NCBI GenBank assembly: GCA_009840355.1
Contig: VXNZ01000056.1
Coordinates: 186,001-250,000 of the forward strand
Origin: Chloroflexota bacterium
GTDB lineage: Bacteria; Chloroflexota; Dehalococcoidia; Lucifugimonadales; JADFKI01
DNA length: 64,000 nt
Direction of reading: 5' to 3'
Part shown: piece by piece, positions 5,193 through 7,990 of the stretch
Layout of the letters: each line of letters starts with the position of its first letter
Numbering within the stretch: position 1 is the first letter of the stretch
Notes under the pieces: model-generated
What the model was told of the DNA's origin: nothing
Seen by the model: the letters and a program-made list of their open reading frames with translations, nothing else
Databases searched by the model: none
Position numbers and translations under genes: made by a program

Positions 5193-6953
5193 CTAGACGG
5201 CGCACTCGCCTTCGCCGCGTTCTAGGACGTACTTGACTGTCTTGTCCCAGTCGATGTACTGTTCTAGCGTTTCGCGGTTGAGGTCGGGCAGCTCCTTGAA
5301 CTCGCCCATCATCTCCTCGAAGTAGCCTGTGCCTTGACGCAGCACGTAGTCCTTGAACAACTCGCCGTCGTCGTGGCTGCTCTGGTAGTCGGCGACGATT
5401 TTCTTCAACGCTTCCGGCGCGCGCTTGGCGGGGATCTTCGCCTTGATGCGCTGACCGAATCGCGGGTCGTCCTGCGAGTAGCTGCCGCCGAGGAAGAGTT
5501 CGTAAGCAGGCACCTGTCCGCCCGGGCCTCGCGCCGCCGCGCCGTGGAATCCGATGTCCGCGATGTGGTGTTGACCGCAGCCGTTGGGGCAGCCGCTCAT
5601 CTTCACATGCATCTCGCGCACCAGCGGGTCGGACTTATCGACATCTTCGACCGCGTCGGATAACGCCCTGCCGAGACCCATCGATGCCGTGATGCCCAGC
5701 TTGCAGCTATCGGTGCCGGGGCAGGACACGATGTCGGTGATTTCGTGTGCGCCTGATCCGCCGAAACCGATGTCGCTGAGTCGCTGCCAGACTTCGTAGA
5801 GCGCGTTTTCCGGTACCCAGCGGAATGTCAGGTTCTGCTGGTGCGTGATGCGCGCACGACCGCCGGCGTACTTGCGCGACATATCGGCGAGCTGGTGGAA
5901 TTGCCGCGCGTTTATATCGCCGAGCGGCAGTCGGACAGTTACCGCCTTGTATCCGTCCTGACGCTGGTCTTGGACATTCGTCTCCAGCCAGCGGCCGAAT
6001 TCAGGGTCGTCTCCGAATGCGGCGAAATCGCCGTCGAGCGCCGGGGCATCCTGCTCTTCGTCCTCGACGAACATCAGGTCGGCGGGGTCGAACGATCGCT
6101 GCGCCCACGACTGCTTGATTTCCTCTTCGACTTCCTTGCGGAATTCGTCGATACCGACACGCGCGATGTAGAACTTGATGCGCGCCTTCATGCGGTTGCG
6201 GCGCAGTTCGTTGGTGCGGTGGAATATGCGCAGCACCGCCTCGGTCATCTTCAGGTATTCTTCGACCGGTACGAACTCAAACAGCGTCGGCGCGATACGC
6301 GGCATAATGGATGTGCCGCCACCCACGACCATCTTGAAGCCCTTCTTCCCGTCCTGAACGCGCGGGAGGAAGCCGATATCGTGGATGGGCGTGATGGCGC
6401 AGTCGCTGTCGCAGCCGGAGAACGCGCTCTTTATCTTGCGCGGCAGGGACTGGCTGAAAGGATGCCGCACGAAATATCGCGCGTACGCCGCGGCGTATGG
6501 CGTGACATCGAACGGCTCGTTGGCGCACACGCCAGCGACCGCGCAGCCGGTAACATTGCGCACGGTGTTTCCGCACGCCTCGCGCGTGCTCAGCCCGACA
6601 TCGCCGATGAGCCGCATAATTTCGGCGCCGTGATCGAGATTGATGTGGTGGAACTGGAAGTTCTCGCGCGTGGTAACATGCCCCTTCTTCAGCGGCGCGT
6701 ACTTCTCCGAGACCTCGCCTAGCGCGTCAAGCTGGTCGGCGTTGACGCCACCGAACGGGCACTTGATGCGGAACATCTGCGCGTCCGGCTGGCGCTGGCC
6801 ATAAACGCCCTGCCGCAGCCGGAATGCCATAAAATCGGTCTCCGACCATTCACCCGCTCGGAAGCGAGCCACCTGTGTCTCAAAATCGGCAATCTCTTCA
6901 GGAAGAATCTCGATGATGCTCTTGGCACGAGGCTTCCATTCCGTCTGGGTCAT
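5193..6953 (-). CDS. Siroheme-dependent nitrite/sulfite reductase (ferredoxin type)
   Basis: The enzyme reduces sulfite to sulfide (or nitrite to ammonia) with six electrons. Two repeated ferredoxin-like half domains and two siroheme/4Fe-4S domains are present. The cluster-binding cysteines appear as CPGTDSC and CPNGCGQH, the hallmark C-x5-C...C-x3-C arrangement. The start at ATG 6953 gives 586 aa; an upstream ATG at 7022 in the same frame adds a non-conserved leader and abuts a hairpin. GGAAGGAG lies 11 nt before the chosen ATG. Sequence alone does not separate sulfite from nitrite reductase. The upstream Cys-rich leader peptide and attenuator-like hairpin argue for assimilatory sulfite reduction controlled by cysteine supply. 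Confidence 0.93.
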   Translation of the reverse strand: MTQTEWKPRAKSIIEILPEEIADFETQVARFRAGEWSETDFMAFRLRQGVYGQRQPDAQMFRIKCPFGGVNADQLDALGEVSEKYAPLKKGHVTTRENFQFHHINLDHGAEIMRLIGDVGLSTREACGNTVRNVTGCAVAGVCANEPFDVTPYAAAYARYFVRHPFSQSLPRKIKSAFSGCDSDCAITPIHDIGFLPRVQDGKKGFKMVVGGGTSIMPRIAPTLFEFVPVEEYLKMTEAVLRIFHRTNELRRNRMKARIKFYIARVGIDEFRKEVEEEIKQSWAQRSFDPADLMFVEDEEQDAPALDGDFAAFGDDPEFGRWLETNVQDQRQDGYKAVTVRLPLGDINARQFHQLADMSRKYAGGRARITHQQNLTFRWVPENALYEVWQRLSDIGFGGSGAHEITDIVSCPGTDSCKLGITASMGLGRALSDAVEDVDKSDPLVREMHVKMSGCPNGCGQHHIADIGFHGAAARGPGGQVPAYELFLGGSYSQDDPRFGQRIKAKIPAKRAPEALKKIVADYQSSHDDGELFKDYVLRQGTGYFEEMMGEFKELPDLNRETLEQYIDWDKTVKYVLERGEGECAV

Positions 6954-7029
6954 TGCGTAACGCTCTCCTTCCGCGTGTGCGTGGGTGTCGGATGTATTAA
7001 CTGGGCGGGAATAATGCAGCAAACAGAAA

Positions 7030-7056
7030 GCCCCGCTTGATTAAATTAAGCGGGGC
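7030..7056 (-). terminator. Attenuator-like terminator in the reductase leader
   Basis: On the minus strand GCCCCGCTT (7056-7048) pairs perfectly with AAGCGGGGC (7038-7030) and is followed by TTTCTGTTTG. It lies downstream of a consensus promoter and the Cys leader ORF, and 76 nt before the reductase start. Transcription from that promoter must therefore read through it, as expected for an attenuator. Confidence 0.6.
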
Positions 7057-7092
7057 GTCTTATCGACTTCGGCAAAGCATGCCTGCCAACCC

Positions 7093-7143
7093 CTAGCGGT
7101 CGTTCATACAGGCGCAGATGTTGTCGAAAGCGCAATGCAGCAT
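7093..7143 (-). CDS. Putative cysteine leader peptide (MLHCAFDNICACMNDR)
   Basis: A 16-codon ORF with cysteines at positions 4, 10 and 12 runs from ATG 7143 to TAG 7093. A consensus promoter (TTGACA-N17-TACAGT) predicts a transcription start around 7146, only about 3 nt before the ATG. The peptide would be translated from an essentially leaderless mRNA, and no Shine-Dalgarno is present. It ends 36 nt before a terminator-like hairpin upstream of the sulfite/nitrite reductase. The layout matches the leaderless polycysteine sORF attenuators known from mycobacteria. Here it is an inference from sequence alone, and the ORF is short enough to be chance. Confidence 0.5.
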   Translation of the reverse strand: MLHCAFDNICACMNDR

Positions 7144-7152
7144 ATTAGAGCA

Positions 7153-7181
7153 ACTGTAACAACCTATCCCCTGTATGTCAA
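7153..7181 (-). promoter_or_regulatory. Consensus promoter for the leader peptide-reductase transcript
   Basis: On the minus strand a perfect -35 TTGACA (7181-7176), a 17-bp spacer and a -10 TACAGT (7158-7153) are present. The predicted start is at about 7146. It points into the leader ORF, the hairpin and then the reductase gene. Confidence 0.6.
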
Positions 7182-7259
7182 CAATAGGGCAACGGCGCGG
7201 CGGGGAACATGGATGGACAGGATACGGGTTTCGCCTTGGCAGTTTGAGTTCTGTCGTGT

Positions 7260-7288
7260 TTGACGAAATAATGCCTTAATAATAGAAT
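7260..7288 (+). promoter_or_regulatory. Promoter of rex
   Basis: TTGACG (7260-7265), a 17-bp spacer and TAGAAT (7283-7288) each match sigma-70-type consensus at 5 of 6 positions. The predicted transcription start, about 7295, lies just before the Rex box. Confidence 0.6.
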
Positions 7289-7296
7289 ACGCAGAT

Positions 7297-7320
7297 ACTT
7301 TGTGCGATTTGCCACAAAGT
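7297..7320. promoter_or_regulatory. Rex operator (ROP box), autoregulatory
   Basis: The palindrome has perfect 8-bp arms, ACTTTGTG and CACAAAGT, separated by 8 bp. Its core TTGTG-N8-CACAA matches the 18-bp architecture of known Rex sites (TTGTGAAATATTTCACAA). It sits at the predicted start of rex transcription and 34 bp before the rex ATG, so Rex probably represses itself at low NADH/NAD+ ratio. The inner four bases are not fully symmetrical. Confidence 0.65.
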
Positions 7321-7354
7321 TCTGAGTGTGTAGTCAGCGGGGGTAAGGATTCGG

Positions 7355-7990
7355 ATGTCGATGGACTCTGTCGAGGTGCCTGAGGTAGTCGTTCTGAGGC
7401 TGCCTCTGTATGTTAGGGCGTTATCACAGCTCTTGTCGGAGTCGATTGATGTGGTGAGTTCGCAGCAACTCGGCAGCTTGCTGCAGATGACGCCCGCACA
7501 GATTCGCAAGGACCTGAGCTACTTCGGACGGTTCGGCAAGCAGGGCAGAGGCTACGATGTTCGCTTCCTGCTGAACGAGCTGCAGGAGATACTAGGGCTA
7601 GATCGCGAATGGCGCGCATGTCTTGTCGGCGTGGGACGGCTCGGCAGGGCGATCATCAACTATCCCGGCTTCTACCGCGAAAACTTCCGCATCGTGGCGG
7701 CGTTCGATGGCGATCGCGCGCAGGTTGGCAATACTATCGGCGAGTTCAATGTGCAGCCGATGTCTGAATTAAGCGATACCGTCATCGACAAGCACGTCAC
7801 TATCGGCATCGTCGCGGTGCCCGCACAGCAAGCGCAGAACGTCATAGATGTGCTGATAGAGAACAACATCAAGGGCATCTTGAACTACGCGCCCGTCGCC
7901 GCCAAAGTCCCGATGAACATAGTAGTGCGCAACATCGATCCCGTCCTATCGCTGCAATCGATGACATTCTATTTGCGCGATATGGAGTGA
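7355..7990 (+). CDS. rex: Redox-sensing transcriptional repressor Rex
   Basis: Rex is a homodimeric repressor that senses the NADH/NAD+ ratio and controls fermentation and respiration genes. The N-terminal winged-helix domain (about residues 8-80) has the typical QLGSLLQMTPAQIRKDLSYF recognition region and the FGKQGRGYDV wing. The C-terminal Rossmann domain has the NAD(H) motif VGVGRLGRAI (about 89-98) and ends in the domain-swapped helix. At 211 aa it has the family length. The ATG is preceded by GGGGGTAAGG. A consensus promoter overlaid by a Rex box lies immediately upstream. The nearby ATP synthase and NADH dehydrogenase genes are plausible regulon members elsewhere, but no further Rex box was noticed in this window. 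Confidence 0.95.
   Translation: MSMDSVEVPEVVVLRLPLYVRALSQLLSESIDVVSSQQLGSLLQMTPAQIRKDLSYFGRFGKQGRGYDVRFLLNELQEILGLDREWRACLVGVGRLGRAIINYPGFYRENFRIVAAFDGDRAQVGNTIGEFNVQPMSELSDTVIDKHVTIGIVAVPAQQAQNVIDVLIENNIKGILNYAPVAAKVPMNIVVRNIDPVLSLQSMTFYLRDME

Follow-up and report, generated by a model that had tools for sequence, protein, structure and literature searches.

Attenuators of the trp/his type in Proteobacteria have a leader rich in the regulated amino acid, four regions (1–4) that pair in mutually exclusive ways and an intrinsic terminator, and translation of the leader is initiated with a Shine-Dalgarno sequence. For cysteine, the leaderless polycysteine sORFs of mycobacteria described by Canestrari et al. 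in 2020 (doi 10.1111/mmi.14498) are said to act in cysteine-responsive attenuation. Mycobacterial cysteine leaders without conserved terminators had been predicted in 2005 (Seliverstov et al., PMC1262725) and seen to be leaderless in 2015 (Shell et al., PMC4633059); in 2020 they were shown to regulate downstream genes by a process that two later papers describe as translation attenuation (PMC9031893, PMC13236596). A cysteine leader with a terminator, the uORFC-8-2 motif, stands before cysS in Rhodobacterales (PMC8632094).

Here we analyze a Chloroflexota stretch of 64,000 nucleotides, which as a whole is referred to as the window, in which an earlier note had proposed a leaderless cysteine leader peptide and attenuator ahead of a sulfite/nitrite reductase gene. 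The promoter, the 16-codon ORF with three cysteines, the 9-bp hairpin with its T-rich tract and the gaps of 36 and 76 nt given there are exact base for base; an antiterminator segment at the stop codon and a regulon in relatives go beyond its content. Like the mycobacterial polycysteine sORFs, the element has, ahead of sulfur or cysteine genes, a short ORF that is predicted to be leaderless and carries Cys codons toward its C-terminal end, a likeness of architecture for which homology is not established. Unlike the mycobacterial leaders, which have no conserved terminator (PMC1262725) and are described as acting on translation (PMC9031893), it has an intrinsic terminator and a covarying 1:2/2:3/3:4 switch. 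With uORFC-8-2 it shares the short Cys-codon ORF, the intrinsic terminator and predicted ribosome-mediated transcription attenuation. However, uORFC-8-2 belongs to Alphaproteobacteria, precedes cysS only, is dominated by UGC and is not described as leaderless (PMC8632094), whereas the Chloroflexota leader stands before sulfur assimilation genes, here a NirA/SirA-like reductase and not cysS, is rich in UGU and is leaderless by prediction. It differs from the trp/his attenuators in its near-leaderless start, its Cys signal and its phylum. The element thus appears to join two features so far apart, the leaderless start of actinobacterial Cys leaders and the terminator switch of the Cys transcription attenuators of Rhodobacterales, in a new phylum and with a wider gene set. 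The literature search found no report of Cys leaders in Chloroflexota, most subscription papers being outside its coverage; within the literature covered, this would be the first description from that phylum of an attenuator with an amino-acid leader peptide.

Anatomy of the Leader

All elements of the leader lie on the minus strand. The −35 hexamer TTGACA (7181–7176) and the −10 hexamer TACAGT (7158–7153), preceded by TG, are separated by a spacer of 17 nt. The leader ATG at 7143 is 9 nt past the −10 hexamer, and the transcript is predicted to start at about 7146, some 3 nt ahead of this ATG. The ORF (7143–7093), predicted to be leaderless, encodes the 16-residue peptide MLHCAFDNICACMNDR with three Cys and includes the putative regulatory Cys codons TGC (7116–7114) and TGT (7110–7108). 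At the Cys frequency of the window (1.1%), the probability of at least three Cys in 15 residues is 6e-4; conservation in relatives, rather than this figure, is decisive for the putative leader ORF against chance.

Region 1 (CGACC, 7102–7098) lies in the final codons of the ORF. Its partner, region 2 (GGGGTTG, 7093–7087), lies at and past the stop codon, which merges into the GGGG, and can alternatively pair with terminator arm 3. The terminator hairpin (7056–7030), 36 nt past the leader stop, is a perfect GC-rich stem of 9 bp made of arm 3 (GCCCCGCTT, 7056–7048) and arm 4 (AAGCGGGGC, 7038–7030), with a folding energy of −16.0 kcal/mol (z −5.1 against shuffles). The T-rich tract TTTCTGTTTG (7029–7020) that follows is interrupted in the window; longer T runs are found in many relatives. 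The reductase ATG (6953) comes 76 nt past the hairpin, with a Shine-Dalgarno-like AAGGAGAG (6970–6963) ahead. The possibility that the hairpin ends a neighboring or convergent gene was rejected: rex (7355, plus strand) is divergent, which leaves no other gene to which the hairpin could be assigned. An Rfam search of 6500–7800 yielded no family reaching threshold.

The Reductase and Its Host

The gene under the leader (6953–5193, minus strand) encodes a ferredoxin-type sulfite/nitrite reductase of 586 aa. It has both the NIR_SIR and the ferredoxin-like half (NIR_SIR_ferr) domains of Pfam, as expected for the NirA/SirA family; its best match in NCBIfam is the NirA family, under the cut-off of that model, and the closest solved structure is NirA of M. 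tuberculosis (1zj8). Its substrate, sulfite or nitrite, is not decided by the sequence of the putative enzyme; the leader would flag this NirA-like protein as an assimilatory sulfite reductase. Its nearest named relative, at 90% identity, is from SAR202 cluster bacterium bin90, followed at 86% by one from an uncultured Dehalococcoidia bacterium, and therefore the window comes from a SAR202-type Chloroflexota genome, in agreement with the host considered likely in the earlier note. This lineage is widespread, uncultured and marine.

On the opposite side of the leader, immediately past the promoter predicted for rex, a Rex-operator-like palindrome (TTGTG-N8-CACAA; TTGTGCGATTTGCCACAA, 7300–7317, plus strand) likely serves rex autoregulation.

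Conservation across Relatives

Reductase upstream regions were taken from 60 relatives, and a second search added more genomes of the class. Conservation of the promoter, the Cys codons and the hairpin, which had been named as the check on the attenuator, was found in the order of the host: the array stands directly before the reductase or its operon in 34 of the 43 genomes that have the reductase. It is absent in eight (G009, G012, G023, G030, G033, G034, G043 and G055), and in G020 the contig begins too near the reductase to show a leader. Five were counted as positive despite one weak element: a TTG start (G017), a poor −35 (G025 and G059), an apparent loss of the stop codon (G031) and a 13-nt spacing (G048). 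Outside the order, 72 of 73 reductase loci in other orders of the class are without the leader, the one exception being L082 of G064.

The shared array consists of TTGACA-N17/18-TAnnnT, a start codon 6–11 nt past the −10 (mode 9), an ORF of 12–17 codons in which the Cys codons cluster toward the end, G-rich sequence at the stop codon and an intrinsic terminator. In 30 curated leaders the −35 is TTGACA throughout, a figure somewhat flattered by picking the set by score; the spacer is 17 nt in 22 and 18 nt in 8, and the start codon, at the same distances and mode, is ATG in 25, GTG in 4 and TTG in 1. Such distances predict a 5′ UTR of about 0–3 nt. There would therefore be no room for a Shine-Dalgarno sequence in the transcript, and the sORF is predicted to be leaderless, so the spacing supports the architecture proposed before.

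How common are such starts in this genome? The own genome has 20 instances of a promoter with a near ATG as against 0 for the reversed pattern, which suggests that starts of the leaderless type are habitual in it. Leaderless genes have been predicted earlier in Chloroflexi (PMC3160421). Six similar promoters of the own genome (L059, L060, L064, L065, L067 and L074) end in ATAATCnGAACA(T/A)ATG, with the start codon within a GAACATATG box that resembles an SOS box; some of them are near contig ends, and they belong to a repeated gene family, perhaps a mobile one.

Between genera, only the Cys positions near the C-terminus of the leader are common, and the remaining peptide varies outside the genus, save in a sub-class with DDLFHLC. 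The final Cys codon is 2–6 codons ahead of the stop. Cys accounts for 73 of 416 leader residues (17.5%) versus 1.1% in window genes, and TGT for 45 of these 73 codons (62%) versus 24 of 170 (14%) in window genes, so that TGT exceeds TGC in leaders and the reverse holds in genes. This conservation of Cys codons supports the role proposed for cysteine. In two leaders (L026 of G031 and L078 of G307) the frame or stop is apparently shifted relative to the similar L056 and L057, which appears to be assembly error or leader decay.

In the sister orders the reductase gene is under some other control, perhaps that of a DNA-binding regulator. At five loci that lack the Cys leader, all from other orders of the class (L102, L111, L117, L120 and L156), palindromes with ACTTTATCAA / TTGATAAAGT lie upstream of the reductase; a regulator binding them may perhaps replace the attenuator, the Rrf2 type being a guess.

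Alternative Hairpins and the Proposed Mechanism

How could the ribosome on the leader ORF govern the terminator? RNAalifold on a MAFFT alignment recovered just five terminator pairs with the spacer misaligned, and therefore pairing was tested with own-versus-cross duplexes, in which the regions of a leader are compared by permutation with regions from different species. Region 1 was taken as the last codons to the stop, region 2 as the stop codon plus the 20 nt after it, and arms 3 and 4 as the terminator. Own pairings were better than cross pairings for 1:2 (p 5e-5), 2:3 (p 0.001–0.004) and 3:4 (p 5e-5), and were no better for the control pairings 1:3 and 2:4 (p 0.5–0.9). Since the three pairings covary and the controls do not, the array looks like a trp-type attenuator. 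The results hold in 24 non-redundant leaders, and those for 1:2 and 2:3 also in 14 leaders without the common CCCCG arm. On the alignment, 78.9% of pairs are standard versus 40–52% for slid partners; examples are TAGGAGAGG with CCTCTCC (L040), GGGCGC with GCGCCC (L039) and GGGGCGT with ACGCCCC (L021). An upstream stretch of the ORF gave p 0.013 with region 2, and thus this part may also take part in folding.

A ribosome was then modeled as masking 14 nt from the A-site. The mean probability that arm 3 is paired upstream is 0.635 with the ribosome stalled at the last Cys codon versus 0.375 at the stop, as compared with 0.555 and 0.507 after shuffling of the spacer (p 7e-5 for the difference); the stall-versus-stop difference is small or reversed in several leaders (L003, L010, L012, L013, L015, L023 and L043). 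In the window itself, the full-length leader folds as 1:2 plus the terminator. In the segment before arm 4 (7104–7048) GGGG pairs with CCCC, and this antiterminator alone is no stronger than shuffles (z −0.08). It is the 2:3 covariation across relatives that provides the predicted antiterminator pairing, mutually exclusive with the terminator.

Most probably, charged Cys-tRNA is sensed here by a ribosome-mediated transcription attenuator, under whose control the assimilatory sulfite reductase stands. RNA polymerase would start about 3 nt ahead of the leader ATG and a ribosome would load at the 5′ end of this leaderless transcript. With ample cysteine, the ribosome would clear the Cys codons and reach the stop, where region 2 would be masked or paired with region 1, so that the 3:4 terminator could form and transcription end before the reductase. 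When cysteine is scarce, the ribosome would stall at the CxC codons and leave region 2 free for arm 3; the 2:3 pairing would block the terminator and the reductase would be made. The sequences themselves show the anatomy, its conservation, the Cys-codon enrichment, the 1:2/2:3/3:4 covariation and the association with sulfur genes; where the transcript starts, that it is translated without a leader, that it is terminated and that it responds to cysteine are inferences. As in trp/his-type attenuators, the leader ORF is enriched in the amino acid concerned, an intrinsic terminator lies between it and the first gene, and the genes belong to the same amino-acid pathway (sulfite reductase, and in relatives CysH, ATP sulfurylase, a PALP enzyme and siroheme synthase).

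The mechanism described for mycobacteria, in which the leaderless Cys ORF would gate the entry of ribosomes at the start of the reductase, with the hairpin an incidental feature, has some appeal, as leaderless Cys-codon sORFs before mycobacterial sulfur genes reportedly affect how the following gene is translated (PMC9031893, PMC13236596) and the leader-to-gene gap is short in a few relatives (33 nt in L034). We regard it as unlikely, however: nearly all leaders have, before the gene, a GC-rich terminator with a T tail and arms that covary, the 3:4 covariation is strong, region 2 covaries with arm 3, and the reductase retains its own Shine-Dalgarno sequence. The mycobacterial logic invoked in the earlier note is supported as to the predicted leaderless Cys sORF, but the terminator and the covarying hairpins point to transcription attenuation of the trp type.

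The DDLFHLC Sub-class

In the sub-class mentioned above, DDLFHLC is common to L033, L036, L040, L197, L207 (twice) and L217, all found without a peptide query. The codons of these seven leaders differ at 8 sites, all synonymous; the chance of such a pattern is about 4e-5, if variable sites are random over 21 positions of which 9 are synonymously variable. A back-translated DDLFHLC pattern occurs at 20 places in 13 of 147 genomes of the order, all of them leader-like, with 0 for the control; across the phylum outside the order it occurs in 4 of 400 genomes, none leader-like, which is chance level. The pattern admits synonymous changes only, so its matches alone are no proof of selection, and the evidence lies in the seven unselected leaders. 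DDLFHLC leaders (also L231–L249), often with a single Cys, precede genes for the reductase, PAPS-reductase-like, ThiF, peroxiredoxin-like, rhodanese-like and binding proteins. A literature search for DLFHLC found no report, most subscription papers lying outside its coverage.

The sub-class is possibly a nascent-peptide sensor. That SAR202 has a multi-operon cysteine regulon run by leaderless transcription attenuators, with DDLFHLC as a tunnel arrest or sensor element in this one sub-class, is a tentative idea that we rather doubt; if it is true, a single Cys codon would suffice, and the peroxiredoxin-like, rhodanese-like and binding-protein genes would join the regulon beyond cysteine synthesis. 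Could the window leader itself work in this way, the peptide in the exit tunnel, and not the supply of Cys-tRNA, sensing cysteine, sulfide or redox state? The synonymous codon changes of the sub-class, its often single Cys and its occurrence before peroxiredoxin-like and rhodanese-like genes would fit such a sensor, but the window leader falls outside the sub-class and most relatives conserve Cys codons only, which makes this explanation very improbable. A chance ORF that happens to precede a terminator of the usual kind or a leader that is constitutive, suggested by the individually modest signals of the window (a promoter match of 10/12, and 4 promoter-like sites versus 1.8 expected in a 4-kb region by promoter scan), is practically dismissed by conservation over dozens of genera, the covariation and the absence at 72 of 73 sister-order loci.

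Candidate Regulon

Further leaders were sought with a covariance model, which was built from 27 leaders and recovers the own reductase leader with an E of 2e-22. In relatives it finds leaders before CysH alone or with ATP sulfurylase/APS kinase (L208, L209, L212, L214 and L260), TauE/SafE alone or with CysH (L196, L204 and L221), a PAPS-reductase-domain protein (L197 and L207), ThiF alone or with a cysteine-synthase-like PALP enzyme (L199 and L213), siroheme synthase followed by the reductase (L203), TusA/DsrE (L201, L206, L216 and L259), DUF4395 (L210 and L211) and CMD proteins (L202 and L226), some of these genes being named by Pfam and others from sequence. These leaders before other sulfur genes make up a candidate regulon, so that some of the sulfur regulon becomes readable from sequence in organisms beyond the reach of cultivation. 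Convincing matches are confined to the own order among the 301 genomes of the phylum sampled.

In the own genome, the model finds the reductase leader only. A search of this genome (G000, 97% complete) for PF01507 (CysH-type) gave no match, though the reductase and the Cys attenuator are kept; because of these two results, sulfite may come there from a source other than CysH. A second, weak match in the own genome (G000:C44, L219), with an E of 0.07, lies upstream of grpE/dnaK-like genes; it is unaccompanied by a Cys ORF and was taken as chance, as were L215, L218 and L222.

Phylum-wide matches outside the class have E values of 0.004–0.006. At L220 (G487, from another family of the phylum), a short ORF rich in Thr, MLAAPRTTITATTTPTTTTGSVRRGRVSGR, comes after a promoter and precedes threonine-synthase-like and aspartokinase-like genes, which makes it a candidate Thr attenuator.
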